16,287 nucleotides of DNA from Nitrospinota bacterium (GCA_022562795.1 JADFOP010000046.1:1-16287); one strand, 5' to 3'. Positions 3,400 through 16,287 are shown, counted from the first letter of the stretch. A program made the numbers and translations. The notes: generated from the sequence alone by a model not told the origin.

Positions 3400-3553
3400 G
3401 CCGCTTTTTCGATAAGTCATTCAATTCCAAGCCGTTACATAACAGATGTCTGCCACGGATGAGAACACCCCAAACGACGGCAAATTACACCCTGCTCCTT
3501 GAGAAACTACTGAAAGGATGGAGCGGCGATATTTGGCAGCAAGGGCAGACACA

Positions 3554-4066
3554 TCACTTGCCCGCAATCACAATATCTCCCTTTACGGACTCCAGAAGCG
3601 CGATGAGCTCCCCCTGCTCGTGCCCGGGCACTTTGAGCATATAGAGGGTCTCGTTGAAGTTCGCCATCATTGCCTGCCACTCGACCTCATTGATGTAGAG
3701 ATGCTTATGCGACTCCTTCATCGAGCGGCCTTCGTAGCTGCAAGGCCCGCCCGTCGCCTGACAGACGAACTGGGTGACCAAGAACTTGAGCACTGGCGCG
3801 GGAACCTTCTTTCGTGCCTCATCGACGTCGGGGTTGGCGTTGAGGACGGGGTTGGCCACCAGGCGGTCGATAAAGTCATCAACCACCACCGAGATGGGCC
3901 CTACACCGCCGAGCCGCTCGTAGAGGCTTTTTTCGTGCTTCTCTCCGGCAATGATGAGTGTGGCGCCGACCCCTACGAGCAGGAGGGTGGCGAGGAGCAT
4001 AGGAATGGTCCTGCTCAGACGTGTCAAAAACCGAAATGGATAGCGACAAAGGCCGATAGACGTCAT
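3554..4066 (-). CDS. Truncated haemoglobin with N-terminal membrane anchor
   Basis: A 170-residue protein of the truncated-haemoglobin fold, class I-like, which binds haem and typically handles O2, NO or peroxide. Residues 22-40 form a hydrophobic helix (IPMLLATLLLVGVGATLI) that should anchor it in the membrane with the globin outside. The globin begins KSLYERLGGVGPISVVVDDF, the standard TrHb opening, and the proximal His is probably H120 in GRSMKESHKHLYI. The usual B10 Tyr position (F-Y in 'VVDDFY') is Ile here, so distal-pocket chemistry may differ. Two cysteines (FVCQATGGPC) are eight residues apart. The ATG at 4064-4066 has a perfect AGGAGG six bases upstream, and I prefer it over an upstream in-frame ATG at 4141. 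Tandem repeats lie in its promoter. Confidence 0.88.
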   Translation of the reverse strand: MTSIGLCRYPFRFLTRLSRTIPMLLATLLLVGVGATLIIAGEKHEKSLYERLGGVGPISVVVDDFIDRLVANPVLNANPDVDEARKKVPAPVLKFLVTQFVCQATGGPCSYEGRSMKESHKHLYINEVEWQAMMANFNETLYMLKVPGHEQGELIALLESVKGDIVIAGK

Positions 4067-4143
4067 GGCGGTCCTCCTTATATGATTGGGACCAGGGGTG
4101 GGTGTGAGTTTGAGGGATTCGGCCCGCTCGCGAGCCATCAATG

Positions 4144-4198
4144 TATCAACCCTTATACAGTATCAACCCTTATACAGTCTCATATCCCTCCAAGTCAA
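4144..4198 (-). promoter_or_regulatory. Promoter of the truncated-haemoglobin gene carrying a 17-bp tandem repeat
   Basis: On the minus strand TTGACT (4193-4198) and TATAAG (4169-4174) are 18 bases apart. The -10 lies inside one copy of a perfect 17-bp direct repeat (4144-4160 and 4161-4177, plus-strand unit TATCAACCCTTATACAG). Each unit plus its neighbour forms TGTAT-N8-ATACA on the minus strand, a dyad typical of a dimeric regulator site. The regulator is unknown; the TTGAT half-sites recall FNR/CRP-type boxes but the other half does not match. Confidence 0.5.
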
Positions 4199-4290
4199 GC
4201 TCCCCGTTTGCCCGGGAGGGTCTCGTACATCCGGAAAGCCACCACAAGCCCCGATGTAAGAGTAAGGGCCGCGATGACGTGGATGGCCGT
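4195..4290 (-). pseudogene. 3' remnant of an MFS transporter gene
   Basis: The last ~32 codons of an MFS gene are present between SCO1 and the haemoglobin. They read AIHVIAALTLTSGLVVAFRM then YETLPGKRGA and a TGA at 4195-4197. This matches the C-terminus of the intact transporter at 10303-11589 almost residue for residue (AIHVIAALTMLSGLVVAFRM, YETLPGKRGT), and 22 bases (GCCGCGATGACGTGGATGG plus CCG) are identical. Homology begins right after the SCO1 stop codon. There is no start or N-terminal part, so it is a recombination or deletion scar and not a gene. Confidence 0.85.
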
Positions 4291-4294
4291 CGGC

Positions 4295-4900
4295 TCACAG
4301 CTGCGTTCTCTTCAGCAGTTGCCGAACATCTTGGAGAATATCCTCTGGAGGTGTGATGGAGGCATGGCGCAGGCGCCACAGGCCGTCTGGGTCAATCACG
4401 AAGGCGGAGGTGTTGTGATTCACAAGATAGTCCTTTCCCGTGGCACCCACAGAAGCCTTCTCGCGGAAGACACCATAGGCCGCGTAGACTGACTCCAGCT
4501 CGACTTGGGTTCCCGTCAACCCGACGAAATCAGCATTAAAGGTCGCTAAGTGTTGCTGCAAACGTTGTGACCCATCTCGCTCCGGGTCTACGGTGATGAA
4601 AACAAATCGAACACGTTCGGCGTCAGCTCCCAGGGCCTCGTGGACCTTCGTCCACTTAGTCAGCGTAAGAGGGCATGCACCTGGGCAATGGGTGTAACCG
4701 AAGTAAAGGAGCACAACCCGACCCCGCTGTTCGCTCAGGCGGAAAGGCTGGCCGTGCTGGTCGGCGAGGGTGAAGTCGGGCGCTGACACTGGGGGCTTCA
4801 GTACGGTTCCCAGGAACGAGGGCGACTGCTGCTCACAGGATGTAAGCATCAGTCCAGCCAACAGCACCATCACCAAACCAATGGTCATCCCCTTGCGCAT
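4295..4900 (-). CDS. SCO1/SenC family copper chaperone/thiol protein (lipoprotein)
   Basis: A 201-residue SCO protein, a thioredoxin-fold copper chaperone or thiol-disulfide oxidoreductase that helps assemble the CuA site of haem-copper oxidases in the periplasm. The N-terminus has a hydrophobic stretch and lipobox-like LTSC (Cys22). The copper/redox motif C-x3-C is Cys72/Cys76 in GYTHCPGACPLTLTKW, and the third ligand His is in DYLVNHNTSAFVIDP; strand ITVDPERDG is also typical. The ATG at 4898-4900 follows AAGGAGAGAAGTT and gives full family length. A longer open frame exists upstream but overlaps the CYCXC gene. The gene is 31 bases downstream of that selenoprotein, suggesting joint expression. 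Both redox residues remain Cys here. Confidence 0.93.
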   Translation of the reverse strand: MRKGMTIGLVMVLLAGLMLTSCEQQSPSFLGTVLKPPVSAPDFTLADQHGQPFRLSEQRGRVVLLYFGYTHCPGACPLTLTKWTKVHEALGADAERVRFVFITVDPERDGSQRLQQHLATFNADFVGLTGTQVELESVYAAYGVFREKASVGATGKDYLVNHNTSAFVIDPDGLWRLRHASITPPEDILQDVRQLLKRTQL

Positions 4901-4931
4901 AACTTCTCTCCTTACTCTAGTTCCCAACGCC

Positions 4932-5402
4932 TCAATAAGGCCAGAACTTCGAGTACTTGGCGTCGATGGCTTGCTTGATCTCCGGGACGGGCCTTCCCTG
5001 CTTGTACATGGCATACGCATCCAGCGTAATGTTGAGGCAGATGGCTCACCCAACCGCGTGCGTGTCAACGTAACAGTCCAGGTTGTTCTGGTGGCTGTTC
5101 GTCTTATAGCAACCGCAGTAGCACGGCATCCTTTCTATGAGCTCGGGCACCTCCCGCGCAATCCGGTAGGCCTCGGCGACCTTGCCCGTGAAGAGGCCGG
5201 GAGGGAGGGTCGCCGGGCGAGGATTTCGGGGGATGGCTGGTAACGCGAAGGCCGGTCGAGCGCCCAGGGCTGAGCCCCCGACTGGCCTGGACTGCCACCA
5301 CCAGTATCCTCCGGCTCCTACCACGACGACGAGAACACCAACCAGAAGAATCCAGCGGCTCTCCGTTCTGGGTTTTTTAGTATATCTTTTCTTCTTGGCC
5401 AT
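4932..5402 (-). CDS. CYCXC-type secreted protein with selenocysteine (U119)
   Basis: A 156-residue protein of the PCYCGC-motif family (conserved in secreted or lipid-anchored proteins of unknown function). It has a basic N-terminus, one membrane helix (about 17-36, WILLVGVLVVVVGAGGYWWW) and then the family signature: PCYCGC at 93-98, H-x-N-x-LDCYVD and HAVG. At residue 119 there is an in-frame TGA (5046-5048), followed by AIC and then LNITLDAYAMYKQGRPVPEI and DAKYSKFWPY. Family members carry C-x2-C at this point, so the site reads U-x-x-C. The continued homology beyond TGA is strong evidence for Sec. A hairpin lies 14 bases downstream (5012-5031). I end the protein at TGA 4932-4934, which lacks such a hairpin. 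Start: ATG with GAGGAGGG. SCO1 follows. Confidence 0.88.
5012..5031 (-). promoter_or_regulatory. SECIS-like hairpin of the CYCXC selenoprotein
   Basis: In the mRNA, CA-U(bulge)-UACGC pairs with GCGUA-UG around a five-base loop UGGAU containing GG. The stem starts 14 bases after the UGA, within the spacing expected for bacterial SECIS elements bound by SelB. Confidence 0.6.
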
Positions 5403-5439
5403 ACGTAAGCCCTCCTCATTGAAATGTGAGTCCTATTGT

Positions 5440-5455
5440 TTTGTTCATGAACAAA
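5440..5455. promoter_or_regulatory. Perfect 16-bp palindrome, candidate operator
   Basis: TTTGTTCATGAACAAA is an exact palindrome in the 72-base gap between the two-Sec gene and the CYCXC gene, about 38 bases upstream of the CYCXC start. It is more AT-rich than its surroundings and has no following T-run on the minus strand, so an operator seems more likely than a terminator. No matching site was seen elsewhere in the window. Confidence 0.45.
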
Positions 5456-5474
5456 TTCCGGAGGAGTCCCTTCA

Positions 5475-6698
5475 TTACCTTTCTTCAACCAAGTAGATAG
5501 AGCGCCTCGATTCCCTCCCGATGCGGATCAAGACCTGGTCGCTTATCCAGGTCTGGGGCGTTATCTGGCTGATGGTTTCTTCCTGACCAATTAGGAACCC
5601 AATAAGGTAGGCCTGGCCATCTTCCCAAGCCGTGTCACCGGGGTCTTCATTGGTTAGAGGGAACGCAAATTCGTACTCGCGGGTTGAGCCCACCGACCTA
5701 AACCCTGCCCCTAGCAAATTGCTCGTTTGGTCCTGGACCAGGAACCCTGAGGCCATTCACGTATGGGCTCCTTTCGTCGACCGGGGACGGGGTGTTCTCA
5801 CATTGGGGTCAACGCCGATAAAATAATCCTCTATTCCACTACGCGTCAGCAGTTTGGCGTCATTGAAGTCGCCGATCATCCCGTGATGTTCGAAGTCCTT
5901 AAAGAGCATCGCAATCCAGTTCTTGGTGTCCGCCCTAATGGCGAAATAGATTGCTCCTTGGTGAATTTTCGTCCAGACCTCCAGGTGGTATTGCTTTGGG
6001 TCATTCACGATGACATCCCCAGAGGTGCCTCAGCCATAATCGGTCACTGTGGGGTAGTTGGCCCCCACGTGGATTCGTTTGTGGGCAGCGTCCCACCACT
6101 CATTGGGGTCGATGACGCCGTCGAGGCGCGGCGGGGACCCCTGGCGGGCAACGAAGGAAGTGTTGAACTGGGCCAGAGGGAGGGTTTTGTCCCGAAGCTC
6201 CGCTGGGTACTCTGTCGGGTTATATTTCACAACCACTTGGCCCGGGCCGCCGCCGCATCCTATCCCATAGACGTCCCCTGTTATTGCATCCACGTGGAGA
6301 TGGAAGTGGTCCGTGGCGTAGCGAACGGGACCGATATGATAGCTCACGGCGCTATTAGGCAGGTGGGTGTCAAACATGTAGACGAAGGCCCCGTGCTCAA
6401 AGGTGAAAGCCTCAAACTCCAGCTCTTTGGCTCCCGGGTAGGTGCGCTCCAAAAATTTCCTCGCGATGGCTTCGGCCAGGCCGCTGGAGATTTTCACCTG
6501 GCTGGCGTCGAGCAGGTAATCGCCTCGGCTGTCCAGGTAGTATGTCTTTCCTGAAGGGCCCGTCTCCACGCTGGCTGCGATCTTCTCTGGGTTTTCAACT
6601 ATTGTGGCGAGCCGACCACCGCAGGCGTGTGTGGTGTGTGGGAGAAATAGCACCAAGGCCCCAGCCACCACAAAGGGTATGAATTTTATCCGTTTCAT
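5475..6698 (-). CDS. Secreted protein with two selenocysteines (U223, U314), CBM9/DOMON-like C-terminal domain
   Basis: Three consecutive open segments in one frame (6698-6033, 6029-5760, 5756-5475) are separated only by TGA, giving a 407-residue protein. It has a signal peptide (MKRIKFIPFVVAGALVLFLP, cleavage near THA-C) and a strong AGGAGG start. Residues ~60-160 look PepSY-like (LDASQVKISSGLAEAIARKF, HFHLHVDAITGDVYG) ending in CGGGPG. After ~190 comes RLDGVIDPNEWWDAAHKRIH, typical of carbohydrate-binding-9/ethylbenzene-dehydrogenase-like beta-sandwiches. Sec sites are TVTDYGUGTSGDV and TKGAHTUMASGF, both inside this sandwich; they may pair with each other or bind a ligand. The sandwich does not make sense if the protein stops at either TGA, and each TGA has a hairpin downstream. 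I do not recognise a named family for the whole protein; function unknown. It heads a unit with CYCXC and SCO1. Confidence 0.8.
5729..5746 (-). promoter_or_regulatory. SECIS-like hairpin after U314
   Basis: The mRNA GG-U-UCCUG / CAGGA-CC stem with loop GUC (or CCU-GGUCC-AGG) begins 10 bases after UGA 5757-5759. An overlapping alternative, UGGUC-CAG-GACCA, would begin 16 bases after the UGA like most others in this window. Confidence 0.5.
6000..6014 (-). promoter_or_regulatory. SECIS-like hairpin after U223
   Basis: Perfect 5-bp stem GUCAU-CGUGA-AUGAC starting exactly 15 bases after UGA 6030-6032, extendable by two G-C pairs with an AU bulge. Confidence 0.5.
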
Positions 6699-6872
6699 TG
6701 TAAATCCTCCTGATTACTTGGTTTTCACCCAAAAATTTTACGCCCAAGCATGGTCTGGTTTAGATTAGTTGAGTGCGCTAAACGTTTTTCAACTGTCTTA
6801 AATCTTCGCTAGCCCAGTTACCCATTTACTGCTTTTGTATCGCACCCATCTCAACTGGCCCTTTTCCTTCTT

Positions 6873-7460
6873 CTAACGATGATGATCGATGCCTTTGTAA
6901 GCCTCGATGAACTTTACAATCCGTTCCTCATCGAACCCATCAAACTTGTCGATACGTCCCCAGGCCGTCAGGGCGATGGTCTTGTCTAATCGTGGGTTGG
7001 GCGCCAGAATGACGTATCGGTCATACCGCCTGACGACCTGCTCTAACTGCTGGATCAACCGGCCACAATTCCGACAGCGGTATTGGACCAACACACCGCC
7101 GTCTTCGAGATTGTGGACCTGCACCTCGTCAGGGATCGGTGCTTGATGAATCCCCCACCGGGCTAAGGAACCCAAATGGGGGCCAGAGGTGGGAGGGAGG
7201 CTGTTGTAGGGGGGATGCGGGGTGTCGGGAGAGGATATGTGCCACGTGGGCTGAACCGGTATGGCGGTTCCAACCGAGCTTTTCATCATTTGGTTGACGA
7301 ACCACCCTCCGGCCAGAACAACCACCGACAGCCCGATAAGCGGGAGCGCCATCGCGCTAGATTTCTTACGCCGCTTCTCTTCCTGCCGCCTTCTGCGTCG
7401 CTCTTTCTTGCTTGACAAAAGCTCTACCCTCCCTGATGGGAACTCAAGACATCTTTTCAT
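6873..7460 (-). CDS. DUF3105-like membrane-anchored protein
   Basis: A protein of up to 195 residues with a very basic N-terminus (KKERRRRRQEEKRRKK), one membrane helix (AMALPLIGLSVVVLAGGWFV) and an extracytoplasmic domain. The domain carries PPTSGPHLGSLARWGIH, VHNLEDGGVLVQYRCRNC and RLDKTIALTAWGRIDKFDGF, which match the DUF3105 signature (PPTSGPH, HNLEHGGV, LTAWG). Function is unknown; members often accompany redox or cytochrome genes. The CRNC pair could be a redox or metal site. The annotated ATG has GAGG close by, but a TTG at 7416-7418 preceded by GGGAGGG would give the more usual 'SSKKERRRRRQE' start. The 174-base gap downstream (6699-6872) shows no gene. Confidence 0.82.
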   Translation of the reverse strand: MKRCLEFPSGRVELLSSKKERRRRRQEEKRRKKSSAMALPLIGLSVVVLAGGWFVNQMMKSSVGTAIPVQPTWHISSPDTPHPPYNSLPPTSGPHLGSLARWGIHQAPIPDEVQVHNLEDGGVLVQYRCRNCGRLIQQLEQVVRRYDRYVILAPNPRLDKTIALTAWGRIDKFDGFDEERIVKFIEAYKGIDHHR

Positions 7461-7530
7461 AAGCCCTCACTGCAAGGGCTATGTGGCACAGTGAAAAGTA
7501 ACCTATGAAAATGCCTTTCTTCGCAGACAT

Positions 7531-8097
7531 CTAGAGGAGCTCCTTGATTTGCTTGGAAAGGACGGCCAACGTCAGGGAACCGAAGTGCTTGTAGGCTATC
7601 TTGCCGTTTCGGTCGATAAAAAATGTCTCCGGTACTGCATATACCCCGTAGTCAATCGTTATCTTGCCGTCATGGTCCGGCCCGTTGGGATAGGTCTTGC
7701 CGTGCTCCCTAATGAAGGCCAAGGCTTCCCTTCGCTCATCCTGGATGTTCACCCCGACGAAAACCACTCCTCGATCTCGGAAGGTCAGCCAGCCTCCCTC
7801 CAGGATAGGAGCCTCAAGCTTGCAGGGGATACACCACGAGGCCCAGAAGTTGATGACCACGACTTGGCCAAGGTAGTCAGCCAGGGAAAAGCGCTCGCCG
7901 TTGAACAGGACAAACTCCAGGGGCGGGGTCTGCTGGTTGACCAGGGGTGATGGAATGAAGCGGGCGTTTTTGGTTAGACCCCATGCGAAGAGCCCCACCA
8001 GCCCGAGCAGACCGCCAAAGACCCATAACGGAGTCCAAAATCTCCGGACTGATGATACCGCGTTTAGCCTGGAAGCTTGGTGGATCTTTTCGTCCAC
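7531..8097 (-). CDS. CcmG/DsbE-like thiol-disulfide oxidoreductase
   Basis: A 188-residue membrane-tethered thioredoxin-fold protein. A helix at about 22-42 (TPLWVFGGLLGLVGLFAWGL) anchors it. The active site is W-C-x-x-C at Cys89/Cys92 (NFWASWCIPCKLEAP), and the C-terminal GVYAVPETFFIDRNGKIAYK holds the cis-Pro loop of the CcmG/DsbE family, which keeps apocytochrome haem-binding cysteines reduced in the periplasm. Start is a GTG (8095-8097) after GAGGGGAAG. No other cytochrome c maturation genes are visible, so it may act more generally on exported Cys or Sec proteins nearby; that role is inferred. Confidence 0.88.
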   Translation of the reverse strand: MDEKIHQASRLNAVSSVRRFWTPLWVFGGLLGLVGLFAWGLTKNARFIPSPLVNQQTPPLEFVLFNGERFSLADYLGQVVVINFWASWCIPCKLEAPILEGGWLTFRDRGVVFVGVNIQDERREALAFIREHGKTYPNGPDHDGKITIDYGVYAVPETFFIDRNGKIAYKHFGSLTLAVLSKQIKELL

Positions 8098-8127
8098 GAC
8101 GTCTTCCCCTCAATGGTCGGACGACCT

Positions 8128-8141
8128 CCCCTGATAAGGGG
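8128..8141. repeat. Short inverted repeat in the ccmG-like gene leader
   Basis: CCCCTGATAAGGGG has 5-bp arms around GATA, 30 bases upstream of the GTG start at 8097. It could be an operator or a 5' leader hairpin. The rest of the gap 8098-8300 shows no gene. Confidence 0.3.
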
Positions 8142-8300
8142 GCGCTGCCCTATCTGTGCCTGGTATCGTCCAAACCATAGAGGAGTCGTCCTCCTTCGGC
8201 GAGGCTAGGCCTCGATCCAGACCGTTGGCACCGTATCACCCTAATTAGCCTCCCCTCCGGGAATGAAGCAAAACCGACATAGAGTTAGCCGGGTGATGTT

Positions 8301-8582
8301 TTAGGCCCTCTTCCCGTCACGCCCCTCACTCGTTCCTTCTTTTAATGACGTAGGTATGGGCGCTCCTTTAGCTGATCCCACCTCGTCTTGCAGGGCCTCA
8401 ATGTGACGGGCTATCTCTTGTTGCTGTGCCCGGAGCATCGCCAGCTTCTCTTCCGGCGTACCCTCCTGAGTATTCTTCTCTGGTGACGATTCTGAAGGGC
8501 CATGTTTTCCCATACCCCTCATGCAGAAATACATCATCAAGGGGCAAGCCAACAATAACAGCAGCAGAACTAGATTATTCAT
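8301..8582 (-). CDS. Small membrane protein with coiled-coil tail (DUF2933-like)
   Basis: A 93-residue protein with an N-terminal hydrophobic helix (NNLVLLLLLLACPLMMYFCM then RGMGKHG), a polar linker and a helical, coiled-coil-prone segment (PEEKLAMLRAQQQEIARHIE). The helix with a Cys-Pro followed by R-G-M resembles small membrane proteins near copper and metal resistance genes (DUF2933 type), but the match is loose and no function is known. ATG with AGGAAACAGTC upstream. It lies 41 bases downstream of the TlpA-like gene, so probably in the same unit. Confidence 0.6.
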   Translation of the reverse strand: MNNLVLLLLLLACPLMMYFCMRGMGKHGPSESSPEKNTQEGTPEEKLAMLRAQQQEIARHIEALQDEVGSAKGAPIPTSLKEGTSEGRDGKRA

Positions 8583-8623
8583 GACTGTTTCCTTTCACTT
8601 AGAATCCCCTTGTTAACCTGGGC

Positions 8624-9244
8624 CTAACATTCGACCTCGGCTTTGGCAAGTTTCGAATGGGCGAGCAGCGATCCGATGTAGCGACAGCCATCCTGTGAGC
8701 TCCAGTTCCTGCCTCCAATGGCACGACCCACAATGTTTCCATCAGGGTCGATGAGAACCGTCATGGGGATGGACCATAGACCGTAAAGTGACGCGACTTT
8801 CCCCCTGCGGTCCAACAGAGCGGGGAAGGTCAAGCGGAACTGCTCCATGAAAGCTCTGACCGTGGAAGGGTTTTCCTTGAGATTTACAGCGAGAATTGTG
8901 AATCCGTAGTCTTTGAACTTTTGATAGAGCCGTTCCATAGAGGGCATCTCTGCCCGGCACGCAGGGCACCAGGAAGCCCACAAGTTCAGGAACACAACAC
9001 TGCCCCGGAAGTCTTTCAATGCGACTTGATTCCCTTCTGAATCGGGAAGCGTAAACTCAGGTGCCTTCATCGGCGGCACCGCTTTGAGCACTCCAAGGGT
9101 GGATGCGTAGTGGTCTTTCCCCTGAACGCTTGGAGGGAACACGGTGAATCCCGCCACCAAGCCTAGACCCACCGCCAGCCACGCCCAACGGGCGATAAAA
9201 CCATCTCGGTGGCGTGTCCTTGATAGACGTCTCGGTTGTCTCAT
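8624..9244 (-). CDS. TlpA-family periplasmic thioredoxin
   Basis: A 206-residue membrane-anchored thioredoxin-fold protein. The anchor is at about 19-36 (RWAWLAVGLGLVAGFTVF). The fold begins KAPEFTLPDSEGNQVALKDF, the active site is W-C-x-x-C at Cys93/Cys96 (NLWASWCPACRAEMP), and SLYGLWSIPMTVLIDPDGNI holds the cis-Pro loop. TlpA/ResA proteins reduce exported metallochaperone or cytochrome thiols. An extra cysteine ends the protein (AEVEC). I chose the ATG at 9242-9244 because of a GAGGGAAGG directly upstream; an upstream GTG at 9280 lacks this. Together with the CcmG-like and SCO proteins it forms a periplasmic thiol-maintenance set. Confidence 0.9.
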   Translation of the reverse strand: MRQPRRLSRTRHRDGFIARWAWLAVGLGLVAGFTVFPPSVQGKDHYASTLGVLKAVPPMKAPEFTLPDSEGNQVALKDFRGSVVFLNLWASWCPACRAEMPSMERLYQKFKDYGFTILAVNLKENPSTVRAFMEQFRLTFPALLDRRGKVASLYGLWSIPMTVLIDPDGNIVGRAIGGRNWSSQDGCRYIGSLLAHSKLAKAEVEC

Positions 9245-9375
9245 CCTTCCCTCACAAAAGGAATGGTTACTTCCTGGCACCGAAGCCCCCTGGTCCCTCG
9301 TTTAGCAGCCAGAGCAACAGCCTCTGACAGCCTGGGTTCAGGGAAACTAGCTAGGCAGTTAGGGAGTTCTGGGGC

Positions 9376-9753
9376 TTATACGGATCGTGGAGGGTGTTCT
9401 TCCGGAGGCGTGACCAACGAAACGATCCTAATTTGCATGGGAAGGGATATAGACTCAACGTGGGAGATGGAGGTCGCTGAGGCCTGCATCCCGAGGAATG
9501 GCGTCAGGTCGTAGGCCAGGAGGCAAACTGTGCAAGGGTTGCTATCAGTTGAGGAAGAGTTAGAAGGTGAAGGGCTTTGGTTACTATTCCCGCTACGAGG
9601 AGGGCACTCGCCGGGTCCCATGCGCGTACACGGGCCCTTGTCGCCCGACATGCATTGGTCCTGAGCGCTGGCGGTTGGTGTGAAGGGAATTACCCCCAAG
9701 AGTGTGGGGACTATAAAGGATACAAGCACCAAAATGTGGAGGAGCCGTTTCAT
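9376..9753 (-). CDS. Secreted cysteine-containing small protein, unknown
   Basis: A 125-residue protein that I do not recognise. It has a clear signal peptide (MKRLLHILVLVSFIVPTLLG, cleavage near SAQ). The mature part has a Ser/Asn/Pro-rich linker between two cysteine groups: DQCMSGDKGPC and GECPP before the linker and NPCTVCLLAYDL after it. C-x2-C near the C-terminal third could bind metal, which would fit neighbours dealing with metals and thiols. It has its own promoter (9786-9814) and is the first gene before the TlpA-like gene, 131 bases downstream. ATG with AAGGACTAAG upstream. Confidence 0.62.
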   Translation of the reverse strand: MKRLLHILVLVSFIVPTLLGVIPFTPTASAQDQCMSGDKGPCTRMGPGECPPRSGNSNQSPSPSNSSSTDSNPCTVCLLAYDLTPFLGMQASATSISHVESISLPMQIRIVSLVTPPEEHPPRSV

Positions 9754-9785
9754 ACGATCTTAGTCCTTCTTTCTACTGGGCCCCC

Positions 9786-9814
9786 AACATAGATGTGCCT
9801 TCTCGGAAAGTCAA
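9786..9814 (-). promoter_or_regulatory. Sigma70-like promoter for the secreted Cys protein unit
   Basis: Minus-strand TTGACT (9809-9814), 17-base spacer, TATGTT (9786-9791), about 33 bases upstream of the ATG at 9753. It lies in an AT-richer gap after the Met/His-rich gene and probably starts transcription toward the TlpA-like gene. Confidence 0.5.
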
Positions 9815-9850
9815 GAATGTTATTAATAAAACTCGGCAAGCGCGGGCCAC

Positions 9851-10213
9851 TTACTTGCCTGCCTCTTTGGCCTGATTGCGACCCTGTTGAATCATCCTGT
9901 CGCCTTGTTTGGCCATCATCTCGGCCATCTTCTTCATCATCTGACCCTTGAGGACCATCATCTCGCCATGCAATTTGGGGTCCGCGTCCCGGCCGCCCAT
10001 CATCCCATGCATCATCCCATGCATCATCCCGTGCATCCCGCCGTGACCCGTCTTACCGCTGTGGCCCGTCATGCCCGAGCCCATCATGCCGCCCTGTCCC
10101 ATCATGCCCATGCGTCCCGAATGGGCCTCTTTCTTTTCAGCCTGAGCCAGGGAGACGACCAAAACGATGGCCAATCCCGTGATTGCCACTATTCCGAGTG
10201 CCTTTTTCATCAT
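9851..10213 (-). CDS. Met/His-rich periplasmic protein, probable metal binder
   Basis: A 120-residue exported protein (MMKKALGIVAITGLAIVLVV, cleavage after AQA). The mature N-terminal half is a low-complexity stretch of Met, His and Gly (MGMMGQGGMMGSGMTGHSGK then GGMHGMMHGMMHGMMGG). The C-terminal half is a Met/Lys/Gln amphipathic helix (KGQMMKKMAEMMAKQGDRMI). Such Met/His clusters bind Cu(I), Ag(I) and other soft metals in periplasmic copper proteins. It contains no cysteines. The core HGMM unit comes from a 12-bp tandem repeat. AGGAGTCAAG precedes the ATG pair. It lies downstream of the MFS gene, which is consistent with metal handling, though its cargo is unknown. Confidence 0.75.
   Translation of the reverse strand: MMKKALGIVAITGLAIVLVVSLAQAEKKEAHSGRMGMMGQGGMMGSGMTGHSGKTGHGGMHGMMHGMMHGMMGGRDADPKLHGEMMVLKGQMMKKMAEMMAKQGDRMIQQGRNQAKEAGK
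9998..10037. repeat. Imperfect 12-bp tandem repeat inside the Met/His-rich gene
   Basis: About three copies of CATCCCATGCAT-type units encode repeating His-Gly-Met-Met. Repeat number is likely to vary between strains by slippage, changing the number of candidate metal ligands in steps of four residues. Confidence 0.7.
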
Positions 10214-10302
10214 CTTGACTCCTTTCGAGCGGTCGTAAGTTCCAGCAAGACAGACTTCGGGGGGATTCCCGATCCTGACCCTTTAGATGGTGGCAACCTG
10301 GT

Positions 10303-11589
10303 TTAGGTTCCCCGTTTTCCCGGGAGAGTCTCGTACATGCGGAAGGCGACGACGAGTCCCGAGAGCATCGTGAGAGCCGCGATGACGTGGATGGCCGCCT
10401 TCATCCCGACGAAGTCGGCGATGAGGCCCGCGAGGAGCGCCCCGACGGCGTAGCCCAAATCCCGCCAGAAGCGGTAGACCCCGAGCGAGGTCGCCCGCCA
10501 CTCGGGGTGGGCCACGTCGCCCACCGCCGCAATAATGACCGGGTAGACCATCGCGGTGCCCAGGCCCTGGATCACGGCCGCCACTATCCACCACGAATAG
10601 GTGGGCAGGAGCGCCGTCATCCAAATCCCAACGGCCTGGACGGTCATCCCTCCGACGATGAGGTGCTTTCGCCCGATCTTATCGCTCAGGGGGCCGGTGA
10701 CGGGCTGCAGAATCCCCCAGACCATTGGGTAGACGGCCTTGATGACGCCGATGGCCGCAATCCCCAGACCGTAGGATGAGAAGAAGAGGGGGTAGATGCC
10801 CCAAGACATCCCGTCGTTGAGGTTGTTCACCAACCCGGCCTGGCTGCAAGAGGAAAGCGCCCGCTCCTTCCACGTCGTCAGGGAGAAGATCTCTCGCAGG
10901 GACGGTTGCTCCTTGGCCATAGGTTCAGGATTGCCCGTCCCCGGATTGCCGCTCGGCGCCGCCCGGAGGCGGGCCTCGTAGCGGACGTGCTCGATGGTAT
11001 CCCTGACGAAAAACGTCGATACCAGGAGCCCCGCAAAGGCGATGCCGATACCCATGTAGAAAGGCTCGGGCCGCAGGCTGTAGCGTGCGGCGATCTCGCC
11101 TGTGAGCAACGCCATGATGCCGACCGAGAAGTAGCCTGCGAACTCGTTCAGCCCGACAGCCAGGCCCCGCCTCTTTGGGCCTACGAGATCGATCTTCATG
11201 TTGACGGTCATCGACCAGGTGAGGGCCTGGTTGATGCCGAGCAGCACGTTGGCCACGTCGAACCAGAACCAGCTGTTGGCGTAGATGATGATAAACGGCA
11301 CGGGCAGGCCGATTATCCAGCCCAAGACGAGCACGCGCTTGCGGCCCCAGGTCTCGGAGATGCGGCCCGCTAATAAGTTGCAGAGAGATTTCACCACGCC
11401 GAAGGTGATGATGAACGAGACAATGGCGGTCTTGGAGGTGAGGCCGAACTCCTGCTCGCCGATGAGGGGGACAACGGTGCGCTCCAGACCTACCATGGAG
11501 CCCACGAACCCCACCGTCAAGAGAAGCAGCGTGAACTGCTGCCAGTTTTCTTTGATGCCAAGCTTGATCTGGTCGTGTTGGGCCGGCAT
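10303..11589 (-). CDS. Major facilitator superfamily transporter
   Basis: A 428-residue inner-membrane transporter with about 12 helices. The N-terminal half has the MFS signature between helices 2 and 3 (LLAGRISETWGRKRVLVLGW), repeated in the C-terminal half (PLSDKIGRKHLIVGG). The two halves are joined by a ~50-residue cytosolic linker (ARLRAAPSGNPGTGNPEPMA). The substrate cannot be read from sequence; position between the MBL/ArsR module and a metal-binding periplasmic protein suggests efflux of a sulfur, metal or metalloid compound. It starts 110 bases after the MBL stop and probably belongs to the ArsR-controlled transcript. A second, truncated copy of its 3' end lies at 4195-4290. Confidence 0.9.
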   Translation of the reverse strand: MPAQHDQIKLGIKENWQQFTLLLLTVGFVGSMVGLERTVVPLIGEQEFGLTSKTAIVSFIITFGVVKSLCNLLAGRISETWGRKRVLVLGWIIGLPVPFIIIYANSWFWFDVANVLLGINQALTWSMTVNMKIDLVGPKRRGLAVGLNEFAGYFSVGIMALLTGEIAARYSLRPEPFYMGIGIAFAGLLVSTFFVRDTIEHVRYEARLRAAPSGNPGTGNPEPMAKEQPSLREIFSLTTWKERALSSCSQAGLVNNLNDGMSWGIYPLFFSSYGLGIAAIGVIKAVYPMVWGILQPVTGPLSDKIGRKHLIVGGMTVQAVGIWMTALLPTYSWWIVAAVIQGLGTAMVYPVIIAAVGDVAHPEWRATSLGVYRFWRDLGYAVGALLAGLIADFVGMKAAIHVIAALTMLSGLVVAFRMYETLPGKRGT

Positions 11590-11699
11590 GGCTGACGCCC
11601 CTAGCCTTTCCAGACTCTGTCACCACGACGCAGGGGCCTTGCCTCGAGTCGAAGGACCGAGACGCGAATGAGTCCCGTCGAGCTCCTGGTGGGGTTACC

Positions 11700-12434
11700 T
11701 TACGTCGTCAGGCCCATGTTGGACCGTCGAATATTGGCGAAATCTTCGGGCTGGGGCGGGATGTCCTGGGCCAAAGCCTTTATAAACTCATCCTTGGAGC
11801 GGGCCTGGAGCCCGATGTTGAACCGCTTCTCGAATCCGATGGTGGAGCTCGGCTTCCCGCTCATGTGGCGGCCACAGACCGAGCCCGCGGAGTGGGCGGG
11901 ATAAATTTCAAGGGCATCGTCCAGGGCCAAGAGCTTTCCAAAGAGGCTCTCGTAGAGCTGAGCAGCCCCTTCGCGCGTATCGAGCACCAGGTCGGGCCGG
12001 CCCACGTCGCCCACAAAGAGAGTATCGCCAGTGAGGACGAACCAAGGCCCCTCGCCACGGGAGCGGTCTTCGACTACGAGGCACATGCTCTCGGGGGTAT
12101 GGCCAGGAGTGTGAAGGGGCGACATCACAACGTTGCCCACCGCCACCTCATCTCCCTCGGCCAGCGGCACAAACTCGTAGGCGGCCTCGGCGGACTCGTG
12201 CAGGTAAATGGGCGCCCCGGTGGCCTCGGCGAGCTTGCGGCTTCCGGAGAGGTGGTCGGCGTGGATGTGGGTGTCGATGATATGGGTGATCTTAACGCCT
12301 GACTTCTCGGCGAGCTGGAGGTAGGGCTCGATCCCCACCTGGGGATCAACGATGGCGGAGCATCCTTTGCCCCCTCACGCCAGGAAGTAAGCCAGACACC
12401 CTCCCGGGTCGTGTCGGAGCTGCTCGAAAATCAT
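11700..12434 (-). CDS. MBL-fold persulfide dioxygenase-like protein with selenocysteine (U20)
   Basis: A 244-residue metallo-beta-lactamase-fold protein related to ETHE1-type persulfide dioxygenases and glyoxalase II-like enzymes. Metal-site motifs are THIHADHLSG (His56, His58, Asp60, His61), HTPGHTPES, GDTLFVGDVGRPDL and YPAHSAGSVCGRHMSGKPSS; the last is typical of the persulfide branch. The true start is the ATG at 12432-12434, after AAGGAG, and the frame crosses an in-frame TGA (12375-12377) at residue 20: CLAYFLAUGGKGCSAIVDPQ. Family members usually have Cys where U20 lies ('YLxGC...xVDP'), and translation starting after the TGA would lack the first beta strand. Expected role: oxidise low-molecular persulfides; Sec could give it reactivity with selenium or soft metals (inference). 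It follows the ArsR-rhodanese gene by 54 bases. Confidence 0.85.
12328..12349 (-). promoter_or_regulatory. SECIS-like hairpin of the MBL selenoprotein
   Basis: In the mRNA UUGAUCCCC pairs with GGGGAUCGA (9 bp, one G-U) around the tetraloop AGGU, starting 25 bases after the UGA. The loop is at 34 bases, farther than in the neighbours but still within the range known for bacterial elements. Confidence 0.5.
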
Positions 12435-12488
12435 CGCCTTCTCCTTATCTATAGAGCCACGACGATACCGGCCGTTGGGCCGCTCGCC

Positions 12489-13163
12489 TCACTCCTGGCC
12501 CACGGCTACGGGCAAACCGGCTACTCGCCACTCGGGAACCCCCTCTTCAAAGCGGCGGGCCGTGAAGCCCCGTTCGCGGAGGAGCTCGACGGCGTGAACG
12601 GCGAAGACGCAGTACGGCCCCCGACAATACGCGATAATCTCCTGGTCCGTCGGCAGCTCGGCCAGGCGCCGCTCAAGCTCCTCCAGAGGAACTGAGACGG
12701 CCCCCGGGATGTGTCCCGCCCGGTACTCCTCGGCGGGGCGGACGTCGAGGAGAGTCACGTGGCCCTCCCGCACCCATTCCAAGAGCTCTCGGCGACCGAC
12801 GGGCTCCAGCGCTTCGGGGACCTCGAAGTAGTCCTGAACGACCCGCTCGATGTCGGCCAGACGGCGTTCGGCCAGCGATCTGAGAGCGATCCAGAGGCCG
12901 CCTACGGCCTCGTCAGCAAGGCGATAGAAGACGTAGAGGCCCTCCTTGCGCGCCTCGACGAGACGGGCCTCCCGGAGCACCTGTAGGTGCTGGGAGCAGT
13001 TGGCCAGGCCGAGGGAAGCCTCTCTGGTCAAGCTCTCGACCGTTCGCTCCCCCTGGGCCAAAAGATCAAGCAGCTCCAGCCGCTTGGGGCTGGCGAGCGC
13101 CTTGCCGATGCGGGCGAACTGCTCGTAGAGCTGGTCTTTAAACATGCGGCCCTGCTTGGACAT
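12489..13163 (-). CDS. ArsR-family regulator fused to a rhodanese domain
   Basis: A 224-residue two-domain protein. Residues ~10-95 are an ArsR/SmtB winged helix (FARIGKALASPKRLELLDLL, SQHLQVLREARLVEARKEGL). Residues ~125-222 are a rhodanese domain with LLDVRPAEEYRAGHIPGAVS and the active-site loop YCRGPYCVFA (Cys180, with a second Cys185). Such fusions are thought to sense or transfer sulfane sulfur. The ArsR part has Cys56 in LANCSQHL near the recognition helix, a plausible sensor thiol. The protein starts at ATG 13161-13163, directly downstream of a strong promoter and a 20-bp operator, so autoregulation is likely. The next gene encodes the MBL selenoprotein, giving a reactive-sulfur response module. 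Confidence 0.93.
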   Translation of the reverse strand: MSKQGRMFKDQLYEQFARIGKALASPKRLELLDLLAQGERTVESLTREASLGLANCSQHLQVLREARLVEARKEGLYVFYRLADEAVGGLWIALRSLAERRLADIERVVQDYFEVPEALEPVGRRELLEWVREGHVTLLDVRPAEEYRAGHIPGAVSVPLEELERRLAELPTDQEIIAYCRGPYCVFAVHAVELLRERGFTARRFEEGVPEWRVAGLPVAVGQE

Positions 13164-13177
13164 AGCGAGTCTCTCTC

Positions 13178-13197
13178 AAGTATTCAATTGATTACTT
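13178..13197. promoter_or_regulatory. Operator for the ArsR-rhodanese regulator
   Basis: AAGTATTCAATTGATTACTT is a 20-bp near-perfect palindrome (nine of ten base pairs match) covering the expected transcription start, right between the -10 box and the ArsR start codon. The form (AT-rich dyad, TTCAA/TTGA core) is typical of ArsR-family sites. Confidence 0.7.
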
Positions 13198-13198
13198 A

Positions 13199-13227
13199 AA
13201 TATATATAACAAAAAAATACCTGTCAA
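13199..13227 (-). promoter_or_regulatory. Strong sigma70-like promoter of the ArsR-rhodanese operon
   Basis: Minus-strand consensus TTGACA (13222-13227), a 17-base spacer and TATATT (13199-13204). The operator at 13178-13197 abuts the -10, so a bound repressor would block initiation. The rest of the gap 13228-13343 shows no gene. Confidence 0.75.
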
Positions 13228-13343
13228 GTCTTTTTTTAGGAGGCCCCAAAGAACACTATTAATTGGGAGAGCTTAATTGGGTAACGGCTTCGCTTCAAGA
13301 CCAACCTGTGCAATGGAATTAACGAGGGCATGGCTGTAGGTTG

Positions 13344-13910
13344 TCATTCGGCAAGCAATGGACTCACTTCCTCAAGGAGTTTGTCCGCCGTCTGGATAAC
13401 CGTAGACCCCCAGCCTACCAAGGGTTCGGGGATCACATCCCATCTGGCCTCGCCTCCGTAGAGCAAATAGGCGTCCCAGACGATATCCTCCTGGAGGGGC
13501 TGACCACCTTTTATTTGTTCAATCTCCTTGACGCTCAGGCTCGAGCGAGGAGCCTCCCCTGTGACCCAGTCTCTTTCCGTAAAGGAAGGGAGGACGTGCT
13601 CTTTGACCCACCTTCCCAGGGTTCGCTCTTCATCCCAAAAGTGCGTGACTCGGGGGTCACCCAACCGCTCCTTCGCCTCAGAAAGTCGCTCTTGGGCATC
13701 GCTGCTTAACATAGACAGCCAAATGGCATAAACGGAAATTTCGGAAGAGGGGTTTTTCGCCAGAATCTCCTGCTGCACCCAACGGGTGCCGTCCTCACAG
13801 ACCCCTCACGTCGGGGAGAGAAGGAGAATCAGACGAGGCCTGCCCTGGTCCTGGTTAAAGAGCGTCTTTAGCTGCGCAAGAACAGTCTCCGCACCGCTTG
13901 TCTCTTGCAT
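13344..13910 (-). CDS. Thioredoxin-like selenoprotein with U-x-x-C (U35)
   Basis: A 188-residue cytosolic protein, last gene of the mer-like operon. The start is ATG 13908-13910 after GAGGGG, 17 bases behind the MerP stop. An N-terminal helix leads to a hydrophobic strand and active-site loop RLILLLSPTUGVCEDGTRWV, where TGA at 13806-13808 encodes residue 35 and Cys38 follows: U-x-x-C at the thioredoxin position. After it come helix WVQQEILAKNPSS and a strand SVYAIWLSML. The C-terminal ~100 residues (DPRVTHFWDEERTLGRWVKE, WDAYLLYGGEARWD) resemble a thioredoxin-fold beta strand plus insertion and are not assigned. No signal peptide is seen. Likely role: selenol-dependent reductase or metal handler for the adjacent carriers (inference). 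A hairpin lies 16 bases after the UGA. Confidence 0.85.
13775..13789 (-). promoter_or_regulatory. SECIS-like hairpin of the thioredoxin-like selenoprotein
   Basis: GCACCC-GUU-GGGUGC (or a 5-bp stem with loop CGUUG) begins 16 bases after the UGA at 13806-13808. Confidence 0.6.
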
Positions 13911-13927
13911 ATTGCTCCCCTCTCAGG

Positions 13928-14224
13928 CTAAGGGTTAGCTTTTGCCTTAAAGCCGGCTCGCTCGATGGCCTTGATAAGTTCTTCCAGGGTAACTCTATCC
14001 AGGTCGTACTGAACCACCGCCTCCGGGGGTTTGAAGGTCACTTTGGCTTGCTTAACTCCGTCCAGCCTCTCCAAGGCCGTCTTGACCAAGACGGGTCAGG
14101 CGCCTCAGACCATGCCTTCAATGGTGAGAGTGACCGTCTGAAGCTCGGCCACAGCGGGACCCACGACCATCCCCACAAACAGCAGACCGAGAATCAGGGC
14201 AATCATTATTGTGTGTCGACTCAT
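13928..14224 (-). CDS. merP: MerP-like periplasmic metal carrier with two selenocysteines (U40-x-x-U43)
   Basis: A 98-residue protein with a signal peptide (MSRHTIMIALILGLLFVGMV, cleavage near VA-E27) and one heavy-metal-associated (HMA) domain. In MerP the Hg(II) ligands are the two Cys of G-M-T-C-x-x-C. Here that motif reads TLTIEGMVUGAUPVLVKTAL with TGA at 14105-14107 (residue 40) and 14096-14098 (residue 43), followed by the intact HMA fold: LERLDGVKQAKVTFKPPEAV and LEELIKAIERAGFKAKAN. Both ligands are therefore Sec. Stopping at either TGA would destroy the domain. A 7-bp hairpin with a GGUC loop starts one base after the second UGA. It overlaps nothing and starts 13 bases after the MerT stop. 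Role: bind a soft metal, probably Hg(II), in the periplasm and hand it to MerT; the selenol form is inferred to bind tighter. Confidence 0.88.
14077..14094 (-). promoter_or_regulatory. SECIS-like hairpin of the MerP-like selenoprotein
   Basis: Perfect 7-bp stem CCGUCUU / AAGACGG around the tetraloop GGUC, a loop sequence like that of E. coli formate dehydrogenase SECIS elements. It starts 10 bases after the first UGA (14105-14107), with the second UGA lying in that gap and only one base from the stem. Confidence 0.75.
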
Positions 14225-14236
14225 CGTTCCAACCCC

Positions 14237-14596
14237 TCAGCTGGGCAGGGCCGACATAAGCAGCTTGGAGGCGAACGCCGGGAATAGGTCGAAGAAAACG
14301 GCCACCGTCACCACAGCCGTGGCAAATATCAATAGAGTAAAGTTGAGCTTCGCTCCCACCATCCTACAGGCCAAGGTGCGGCAGCGACGCCGCTCGCGGA
14401 AGTAGAGGAAGTAACCCAGGGCCACCCCTCCCACACCCGTCGGGATGAGAACCGCACGGTATTTCATCGTGGTCGCCATGAAAGCGCCGCTGCCAAGGCC
14501 GAGCAGGATGACCGCCAGCGGCAATACACAGCAGAGCGACGCGGCGAGGGCCGAGACGAGGCTGACCACCCCGCTTTTGATTTCACCCACCTTCAT
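14237..14596 (-). CDS. merT: Mercuric ion transporter MerT
   Basis: A 119-residue inner-membrane protein with three hydrophobic helices. The first holds the Cys22-Cys23 pair (ALAASLCCVLPLAVILLGLG) and the loop between helices 2 and 3 holds Cys72 and Cys77 (FRERRRCRTLACRMVGAKLN), the arrangement known for MerT, which takes Hg(II) from MerP and passes it to the cytosol. All four are encoded by UGC or UGU. Start: ATG 14594-14596 after GGGAGAGG (a GTG just before it is possible). It ends with TGA 14237-14239, followed in the same frame by MerP; I read the TGA as a stop. Grx lies 12 bases upstream. Confidence 0.92.
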   Translation of the reverse strand: MKVGEIKSGVVSLVSALAASLCCVLPLAVILLGLGSGAFMATTMKYRAVLIPTGVGGVALGYFLYFRERRRCRTLACRMVGAKLNFTLLIFATAVVTVAVFFDLFPAFASKLLMSALPS

Positions 14597-14608
14597 CACC
14601 TCTCCCTT

Positions 14609-14854
14609 CTACGAAATTTCCAGGAGCCGTTGGAGCTTCCCCCGGTCGAAGCCGATGACCACCTCGTCACCGATAATCACTATGGGCACCGCCCGGGCCC
14701 CCGTCAGGCGGACCACCTCTTCCAAGGCTTCCGGGTCGTCCATCACGTTGTGGTCGGTGAAGGCGACCCCCTTTGCTGAAAGGAACCCTTTCAGTCCCTG
14801 GCAGGAGCTTCACGTGGGGCTTGAGTAGACGACGACGGACTTTTCTTCACTCAT
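14609..14854 (-). CDS. Glutaredoxin-like selenoprotein with U-x-x-C (U15)
   Basis: An 81-residue glutaredoxin-fold protein. The frame starts at ATG 14852-14854 and crosses TGA 14810-14812 at residue 15: KSVVVYSSPTUSSCQGLKGF. This is the C-x-x-C position of glutaredoxins of the NrdH/'PTCSSC' type, so the site is U-x-x-C. The rest is normal: GARAVPIVIIGDEVVIGFDR carries the cis-Pro and the glutathione-binding-like strand, followed by the terminal helix KLQRLLEIS. Sec would raise its reactivity with disulfides, diselenides or soft metals. It sits between the zinc-ribbon gene and merT in a tight operon (12 bases to merT). A perfect hairpin begins 15 bases after the UGA. Confidence 0.92.
14776..14794 (-). 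promoter_or_regulatory. SECIS-like hairpin of the glutaredoxin selenoprotein
   Basis: Perfect 7-bp stem CUGAAAG / CUUUCAG around loop GGUUC, starting 15 bases after UGA 14810-14812. The GGU at the loop start matches the bacterial SECIS loop pattern. Confidence 0.75.
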
Positions 14855-14899
14855 AACGGGTTCTCCCTTATTATCCCTTTTTCTCCTCAGGCGCCGTTA

Positions 14900-15199
14900 T
14901 CAAACTTCCAAAGCCCAAGCCCCGTACTCGAAGCTCAGGCGAAAGGCTCGGTCACAATGCTCAACCATATCCCCCACTTGAACGTCGGTATCCAGCTCAA
15001 GTGCCTCGTAACACACCGGGCAGGAGGCGGTGGGAATGGGCTCCAGCGCCCACTGGTCCTTCTGTCTGACAAGTCGATAGGCGCTCCCCGCGCACACGTC
15101 ACATAACACACGGTCGCCTTCTTTATCATCGGGCTCCAGAGCTTTCATCTCCCCGCATCCAGGGCAGAGAGCCTTTCTCTCTCCCTCACTCGCACTCAC
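14900..15199 (-). CDS. Double zinc-ribbon, LysW-like protein
   Basis: A 99-residue protein translated from a GTG at 15197-15199 that overlaps the MerF stop by 14 bases, so it is translationally coupled. It has two copies of a zinc ribbon: the first is complete (ALCPGCGEMKALEPDDKEGD then RVLCDVCAG), while in the second the CPVC knuckle (SCPVCYEALELDTDVQVGD) is followed by EHCD with only one Cys (MVEHCDRAFRLSFEYG). The 'CPxC...ELDxDVxVGDxVEC' pattern is that of LysW-type carrier proteins. The usual LysW C-terminal Glu-Asp/Glu tail is replaced by WALEV. LysW homologues shuttle amino-acid intermediates, but a mer-operon partner may instead bind metal. The exact function is unknown. Confidence 0.75.
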   Translation of the reverse strand: MSASEGERKALCPGCGEMKALEPDDKEGDRVLCDVCAGSAYRLVRQKDQWALEPIPTASCPVCYEALELDTDVQVGDMVEHCDRAFRLSFEYGAWALEV

Positions 15200-15413
15200 T
15201 TTGGCACCGCCTCCGCTGGACCCAGCCAACGACGGCCAGAACGACAAAGAGCCCCAGGGCTGGAAAGAGCACGTAATCGAGGTAGCCGACGATAGCCGAC
15301 CATCCCACAACCGTCACGAGGACCACCAGCACGGGCGTGAAGCAGCAGACGGCCGCCACGACAGCCCCTATAATCCCAGTACGATGAAGACGAACGGCCG
15401 ACTTGAGATTCAC
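15186..15413 (-). CDS. merF: Mercury transporter MerF
   Basis: A 75-residue two-helix membrane protein. The first helix carries Cys23-Cys24 (GIIGAVVAAVCCFTPVLVVL) and is followed by VVGWSAIVGYLDYVLFPALG, which closely follows MerF of plasmid mer operons. The C-terminus has a second Cys pair, Cys70 and Cys74 (RRRCQSECE). MerF moves Hg(II) across the inner membrane using the two vicinal pairs. All four Cys are normal UGC/UGU codons. It starts 14 bases after the MerT-like selenoprotein stop and overlaps the zinc-ribbon start. Confidence 0.92.
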   Translation of the reverse strand: MNLKSAVRLHRTGIIGAVVAAVCCFTPVLVVLVTVVGWSAIVGYLDYVLFPALGLFVVLAVVGWVQRRRCQSECE

Positions 15414-15427
15414 TCCGCCTCTTTCTC

Positions 15428-15745
15428 CTACACAAAAAGCCTAAGCCACGGAGCCGACCAAAAGAAGAGGCTCACCGCCAGCGCCCCCCAGAGGTAACGG
15501 CGCCGCTTGGGCCCACCCATCCCTTTAGTGTAGCTCAAGTAAAAGGCTACACCAATGGACAGAACGGATACCGGAAGAAGATAGACCCTGTAGGCCGCCA
15601 AACTGACGGCTCCCAGGCCTCCGCTCGTAACCCCAAAGGCGGCGAAGACCAACGGAAGAATTCATCAGATATTCGGCAGCAACGAGGTCACCACGGAGAC
15701 GGCCCCGGTCCAAAGGGGCTTAGCTCCTCGATCCATGTTCCTCAT
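15428..15745 (-). CDS. MerT-like membrane protein with tandem selenocysteines (U27-U28)
   Basis: A 105-residue protein with three hydrophobic helices. Its frame contains TGATGA at 15662-15667: KPLWTGAVSVVTSLLPNIUU then ILPLVFAAFGVTSGGLGAVS. Helix one of MerT-type transporters carries a Cys-Cys pair before a 'xxPLVxxxxG' segment, and here exactly that pair is UU. The remaining helices (YRVYLLPVSVLSIGVAFYLS, YLWGALAVSLFFWSAPWLRL) are intact; the MerT loop Cys pair is absent. Start: ATG 15743-15745 or, with better ribosome spacing, ATG 15734-15736. MerF follows 14 bases later. No compact hairpin is obvious after the TGA pair; only a 4-bp stem around a large loop at 15621-15642 is visible. Role: transport of a soft metal, probably Hg(II), with a diselenol site (inference). 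Confidence 0.78.
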
Positions 15746-15830
15746 GTCTCCTTCTAACCATTCCTTGGGTTATCTCTGTTCAACCCCATCGATCTGGAGC
15801 GCGCATTCCGGTCTCGCCCACGAACTCCTG

Positions 15831-15866
15831 AAAAAAGGCGCCCAGATGGGCCGGTTAAGGCCCACG
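15831..15866 (-). terminator. Possible attenuator or terminator between the HMA and MerT-like genes
   Basis: Minus-strand TGGGCCTTAACCGGCCCA forms a 6-bp GC stem, followed ten bases later by a run of six T (15831-15836). The T-run is too far from this stem for a standard terminator; a second weak GCCC/GGGC stem lies closer. It might lower downstream expression. Confidence 0.3.
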
Positions 15867-15879
15867 AGGGCAACAGGCC

Positions 15880-16287
15880 TCACTGCGATGGGGCAAGCTT
15901 CAGCTCAAGGAACCGAAAATCAACCAGCTCCACCGCGGGAGGGACGCCGTCAATGACATTGTCTATCTTCATCACGGCCCTGGCCTCCTGCTCTGGCGGA
16001 GAATCCAGCGAAGCCAGCTTCTGGAGGGAAGGCGTCGCTTTCAGCCGACACACCTCGCCGGTCCCCGCAATGATAAAGACCCTATCCCCATTCGACTCAG
16101 TTAACACGCCCTGGGCGTCGAAGAGAGCGTAGCCGGTCTTGAAACCAGCCTTTTCGATTGCTTTGGCCATCTGTTGGGCGTTCTTAAGCCGCCACTGAGA
16201 GCCTTCTTTGAGCGAAACGGTGCCCGTGGCTTTTTCCAGACTCATGGTCACATTCTCAACGCCTTCCAGGCGTCTTAGGGCCTTTTC
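15880..16287 (-). CDS. HMA-domain protein, N-terminus cut off by the window edge
   Basis: The frame is open to the right edge, so at least 135 residues are visible and the beginning is missing. The first visible part, EKALRRLEGVENVTMSLEKA, and then KNAQQMAKAIEKAGFKTGYA are the two halves of a heavy-metal-associated fold after its metal-binding loop, which lies just outside the window. A C-terminal extension of ~70 residues (DRVFIIAGTGEVCRLKATPS ... VDFRFLELKLAPSQ) is not assigned. It is the most upstream visible gene of the mer-like operon, 135 bases before the Sec-Sec MerT-like gene. Because its partners use Sec in the metal loop, its missing motif may do so too. Confidence 0.7.
   Translation of the reverse strand, partial: EKALRRLEGVENVTMSLEKATGTVSLKEGSQWRLKNAQQMAKAIEKAGFKTGYALFDAQGVLTESNGDRVFIIAGTGEVCRLKATPSLQKLASLDSPPEQEARAVMKIDNVIDGVPPAVELVDFRFLELKLAPSQ

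Follow-up and report, generated by a model that had tools for sequence, protein, structure and literature searches.

A mer-like gene cluster with predicted selenocysteine codons at metal-contact and redox positions in a Nitrospinota bacterium

Organization of the locus

The stretch of DNA analysed here (the window) is an entire contig (C46; 16287 bases) of a Nitrospinota genome assembly of 2.15 Mb, which consists of 84 contigs and is 97.1% complete. Eight genes lie on the minus strand at 13344-16287. Read from 16287 towards 13344, they code for an HMA protein, a MerT-like protein with a UU pair, MerF, a zinc-ribbon protein, a glutaredoxin (Grx), a MerT-like protein with a CC pair, MerP and a thioredoxin-like protein (TrxL). 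Four of the eight contain in-frame UGA codons, six altogether, so that the layout originally predicted from the sequence was recovered in full.

13344..13910, minus strand: thioredoxin-like selenoprotein TrxL, UxxC (PTUGVC); Sec codon U35 at 13806-13808
13928..14224, minus strand: MerP-type periplasmic HMA selenoprotein, GMVUGAUP; U40 at 14105-14107, U43 at 14096-14098
14237..14599, minus strand: Cys form of a MerT-like membrane protein, with LCC in TM1 and a CRTLAC loop; no internal UGA
14609..14854, minus strand: glutaredoxin selenoprotein, UxxC (PTUSSC); U15 at 14810-14812
14900..15199, minus strand: small zinc-ribbon protein, LysW-like, all Cys in the window; no internal UGA
15186..15413, minus strand: MerF (NF033565, PF11431); no internal UGA
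15428..15745, minus strand: MerT-like membrane selenoprotein, UU in TM1 (NIUUILP); U27 at 15665-15667, U28 at 15662-15664
15880..16287, minus strand: HMA protein, C-terminal part only, N-terminus off the contig; no internal UGA in the visible part

The mer transport proteins MerT, MerP and MerF are all present, but only MerF exceeds its NCBIfam equivalog cut-off, MerP and MerT staying under theirs. MerF scored 90.0 bits with NF033565 (cut-off 50) and matched PF11431 at 1e-17. MerP matched PF00403 (3e-14) and scored 75.1 bits with TIGR02052, under the cut-off of 92.55; with NF041115, the model for UxxU metal-binding (seleno)proteins, it was a near miss (87.4 bits, cut-off 95) with an identical motif. 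The gene names of the original prediction hold, but that of MerT is less firm, both MerT proteins being weak Pfam matches (PF02411, at 14240-14599, with E 9e-4 for the Cys form; E 0.06 for the UU form, which is without any Cys). The glutaredoxin matched PF00462 (1.2e-15) and scored 63.4 bits with NF041212 (cut-off 66) and 78.7 with TIGR02196 (cut-off 88.55). A Pfam search with TrxL gave no match; in its AlphaFold model (mean pLDDT 46) the strand-loop-helix around U35 is consistent with a thioredoxin-like site. Sequence searches of solved structures returned chance matches only, for the most part to designed proteins.

The in-frame UGA codons fall on cysteine columns

The UGAs had been predicted to lie at metal or redox residues, and alignment with homologues indeed placed them on Cys columns. 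The UU pair of the MerT-like protein aligns to the TM1 Cys-Cys column in nearly all of the MerT homologues compared, and Cys homologues were found at the UGA positions of the glutaredoxin, MerP and TrxL (for TrxL a single one, reading APSCPRC). UGA is also retained at these positions: in Acidobacteria homologues of TrxL, in a TrxL orthologue of 84% identity, where it occupies the same place, and in 15 glutaredoxin sequences, the window's own counted. All six UGAs, including both in merP, are kept in a same-genus relative that represents a separately assembled species (G001). Between the window and this relative, dN downstream of the last UGA of each gene is far below dS (approximately 0.07/0.33 for TrxL, 0.085/0.34 for MerP, 0.07/0.79 for the glutaredoxin and 0.06/0.38 for MerT). 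These regions are under purifying selection, and the UGAs are not a matter of chance.

SECIS-like hairpins

Candidate SECIS-like elements were found downstream of the UGAs.

13775..13789, minus strand: SECIS-like apical hairpin for TrxL U35, GCACCCGUUGGGUGC
14063..14094, minus strand: two tandem SECIS-like merP hairpins, for U40 at 14077-14094 and for U43 at 14063-14079; 3 nt shared
14776..14794, minus strand: SECIS-like hairpin for Grx U15, CUGAAAGGGUUCCUUUCAG, with compensatory changes
15616..15650, minus strand: candidate SECIS for the MerT UU pair, the weakest of the set; longer, less certain folds only

The elements of TrxL, MerP (two) and the glutaredoxin have a short stem whose loop opens with G, 17-23 nt downstream of the UGA; ranked against 1529 background codon positions, each comes within the top 2-3%. 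Across genomes, hairpins reaching -5 kcal/mol were counted in 14 of 15 Sec forms of the glutaredoxin, 5 of 5 for MerP U43, 7 of 7 for TrxL and 4 of 9 for MerP U40; the corresponding counts in Cys homologues were 0/6, 3/38, 0/1 and 0/36. In the glutaredoxin stem, four of the eight pairs display both-sided (compensatory) changes over the 15 sequences. Plain minimum free energy z-scores of the UGA flanks, computed over short stretches, were not significant, and the case for the hairpins therefore rests on the contrast between Sec and Cys forms and on covariation. For the MerT UU pair a stricter hairpin test revealed no short apical hairpin, and an Rfam scan of the window gave no relevant match. 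The tandem merP hairpins, which overlap by 3 nt, may be a way of decoding Sec codons that lie close together; like the adjacent UU codons of the MerT-like gene, they raise the question of how decoding is achieved.

Selenocysteine machinery

Absence of the sel genes had been named beforehand as evidence that would refute the original prediction. The source genome contains tRNA-Sec (selC) with a UCA anticodon, as well as selD, which is split across two contig ends and carries an in-frame UGA of its own. Neither selA nor selB was found in the 84 contigs (97.1% complete), which, taken literally, counts against the prediction for this assembly; but the assembly is fragmented, and in the same-genus relative the two genes are present and adjacent; a genome of the same class (G002) also has selB. 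The neighbouring gene for ScpA was located on contig C34 of the source genome, where the gene order breaks before selA. Loss of the two genes and an assembly gap are both possible, the intact UGAs favouring a gap.

The missing selA and selB might be taken to mean that the UGAs are true stops or errors in decayed genes. We consider this very improbable, since the UGAs are kept in a separately assembled species, the regions downstream of them are under purifying selection and the hairpins go with UGA rather than with Cys. Sec decoding, in contrast, is strongly supported by the Cys/UGA alignments, conservation, the hairpins, tRNA-Sec and selD, along with selA and selB in the relative. As judged from sequence, the prediction that all six UGAs in the four genes are decoded as Sec is thus well supported.

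The region beyond the contig end, as seen in the same-genus relative

Continuation of the sequence past 16287 had been proposed as the place to look for merA and merR. The contig ends there; however, contig C233 of the same-genus relative matches the window colinearly over three segments (1-283, 2370-4276 and 13331-15737), and in this relative the operon extends upstream. The extension includes an HMA protein with the motif GMVUPVU (UxxU), an outer-membrane barrel protein (PF13557), a CxxC thioredoxin-like protein (PF13192) and a divergent gene for a MerR-family regulator. The HMA protein of the window begins just past the expected place of the metal motif, and a fifth Sec gene is therefore likely, though not seen. 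In the relative, an additional ArsR-type gene separates the gene of the UU MerT from that of MerF, where the window has none.

The MerR-family regulator of the relative scored under every curated cut-off, slightly better with Zn(II) models than with that of MerR, and has two of the three Hg-ligand Cys; the missing one we take to be the middle Hg ligand, by reference to Tn501 MerR. A Hg-type MerR with three ligand Cys was accordingly not found in the relative, where the gene could be read (in the source genome it would lie off the contig). For the ArsR/SmtB regulator of the relative, the best match after the general metalloregulator model was the Cd/Pb sensor CmtR, and the protein carries a CLRWCG motif; for both regulators the specific-family scores are below the cut-offs.

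No merA was found in the source genome. MerA candidates in the source genome (G000) and in the relative were rejected as NF004991 FAD oxidoreductases; the best one in the source genome scored 763 bits with NF004991, over the cut-off, and 399.6 with the MerA model (cut-off 454).

Related clusters in other genomes

Sec-containing mer-like clusters recur in other genomes. The zinc-ribbon and Sec-glutaredoxin genes are adjacent in G139, G050, G033 and G276, the first two of which have MerT and MerP as well. G099 has MerT, MerF and a Sec-glutaredoxin along with MerP and HMA proteins that contain UGA, and G109 has a UGA-containing HMA protein and MerT. The original description of the locus as a mer-like operon fits its transport parts, and in the latter two genomes such Sec clusters share a stretch with true merA, which the source genome lacks. 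In some related Sec clusters there are also regulators of the MerR family for which the mercury MerR model gave the highest score. An ArsR-type protein (L101, 9935-10621) resembling an ArsR-rhodanese fusion encoded in the window is found next to the merA/Sec-HMA cluster of G109.

The Cys-form MerT (14237..14599) has homologues in other Sec-mer clusters, and zinc-ribbon homologues in three other genomes (L100, L103, L104) have UGA at the CxxC positions. A census of MerT in 386 genomes confirmed no other UGA-containing MerT, although the model used can miss such forms, as it failed to pick up the UU MerT of the window; one weak UGA-flagged match (G095) was left aside. Flagged census rows in the source genome and the same-genus relative turned out to be MerF followed by its own stop. 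A plasmid search with the UU MerT gave no match.

Proposed function and substrate

With moderate confidence, we interpret the locus as a mer-type uptake and trafficking operon in which metal-contact and redox residues are partly replaced by Sec. The Sec-containing mer-like clusters of other genomes, two of them with true merA, and a recognised CYCXC-family selenoprotein encoded elsewhere in the window also speak for this interpretation. The steps are drawn by analogy with mer: capture by periplasmic HMA proteins, inward passage through MerT and MerF, and receipt by small cytosolic redoxins. A soft thiophilic metal, Hg(II) being the most probable one, would first be bound by periplasmic MerP (UxxU) and by the HMA protein encoded upstream, which has UxxU in the same-genus relative. 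It would then be taken over by the paired residues (UU or CC) in membrane helix 1 of the MerT-like proteins and of MerF. From there the metal would reach the zinc-ribbon protein and the Sec-glutaredoxin, which might reduce or exchange metal-thiolate bonds, while the thioredoxin-like protein would keep the donors reduced. Selenols have a higher affinity for Hg(II) than thiols do, and Sec at ligand positions should tighten Hg(II) binding. With no merA in the source genome, Hg would need another fate (sequestration, hand-off or export), and one of the first two, not Hg0, is the probable end point.

Mercury is a plausible substrate, and the assignment is no firmer because the source genome has no merA and the MerR-family regulator of the relative is without one Hg-ligand Cys. 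High-affinity capture of Hg(II), suggested in the original prediction, may still describe the system, but merA is absent and that regulator is not clearly of the Hg type. Since the regulators of the relative do not single out Hg, other soft metals are candidates too. The same selenoprotein operon could act on Cd, Pb, Cu, Ag or Zn, or on a range of metals, with the Mer-type parts serving as generic thiophilic-metal carriers. The absence of merA, the preference of the MerR-family regulator for Zn(II) models together with its missing middle ligand, and the CmtR score of the CLRWCG-bearing ArsR/SmtB regulator would all agree with this; yet the specific-family scores of these regulators are under the cut-offs, MerF passes the cut-off of its Hg family, and related Sec clusters contain true merA or regulators with mercury-type MerR scores. 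We regard a substrate other than Hg as possible but rather unlikely.

The role of Sec itself may also be viewed differently. Two of the four Sec proteins are UxxC redoxins, a classic redox use of Sec in place of Cys (PMC13188914), and Sec might serve throughout for redox repair, oxidised sites being reduced faster and the metal being held as in the Cys homologues. However, all four Sec residues of MerP and MerT, two in each, are at positions that are metal ligands in Cys homologues, where no catalytic turnover is obvious, which makes redox repair as the general explanation improbable. Mer-type trafficking might take the form of a selenol-based Hg relay, in which the metal would move from Sec to Sec, from the UxxU periplasmic proteins to the UU membrane pair and on to a Sec redoxin, ending without merA in a bound or selenide form. 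This extension is speculative; if it were true, selenium would be the working element of a detoxification pathway. The point at issue is whether Sec is a natural metal ligand, beyond its use in redox catalysis, and its presence at ligand positions of a periplasmic carrier and a membrane transporter would make the question directly testable with small proteins.

Comparison with known systems

A 2008 list of marine metagenome selenoproteins already includes MerP and MerT with Sec (PMC2398784). In a 2026 review (PMC13188914), UxxU metal-binding proteins and MerT with a C/SxxU motif figure among the selenoproteins, and such proteins are described as implicated in resistance to heavy metals and in need of study. 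NCBIfam already has models of such proteins (NF041115, NF045683). Sec-containing MerP, MerT, UxxU metal-binding and glutaredoxin proteins have therefore each been published singly. What appears to be new is the operon as a whole, together with the UU MerT, the tandem merP hairpins and the occurrence of Sec in the zinc ribbon; no description of the operon, the UU MerT or zinc-ribbon Sec was found in the part of the literature covered.

As in merT/merP/merF of the Tn501/Tn21 type, there is an HMA periplasmic protein, a MerT with paired TM1 residues, MerF and redoxins nearby. Unlike in those systems, Sec replaces Cys in MerP and in one MerT, merA is missing, and a zinc-ribbon protein, a Sec-glutaredoxin and a Sec-containing thioredoxin-like protein are added. 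The published Sec proteins (PMC2398784, PMC13188914) are of the same kinds, with UxxU in the HMA protein, whereas the MerT motif listed is C/SxxU and that of the window is UU. Like the UXX-star/YruB-type Sec glutaredoxins (NF041212, TIGR02196), the window's glutaredoxin has a small Grx domain whose motif begins with Sec; it differs in being just under both cut-offs, in reading UxxC and in lying within a mer-like cluster. The SAO and Tso multi-selenoprotein operons (Haft and colleagues), as far as the review relays them (PMC13188914), likewise have several Sec genes per operon, and SAO has an organometallic theme, while their gene families differ from those of the window.

Other selenoprotein candidates and neighbouring DNA

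A second UGA-containing glutaredoxin paralogue, ~51% identical, is encoded outside the operon in both the source genome (L108, G000:C32:5401) and the same-genus relative (L109, G001:C199:9680). Elsewhere in the window, 4920-5402 (minus strand) codes for a CYCXC-family protein (NF041379, 122 bits; cut-off 90) with an in-frame UGA at U119 (HAVGUAICLNI). As CYCXC is a recognised selenoprotein family, the window has Sec genes outside the operon. An MBL-fold (ETHE1/GloB-like) protein encoded at 11700-12434 (minus strand), next to the ArsR-rhodanese fusion at 12489-13163, is possibly a selenoprotein too, as its gene contains an in-frame UGA close to the start (YFLAUGGKG). The ~9 kb at 4276-13331, which have no counterpart at the same place in the relative, contain genes for an SCO1-like protein, TlpA-like thioredoxins and an MFS transporter, as well as rhodanese/MBL genes.
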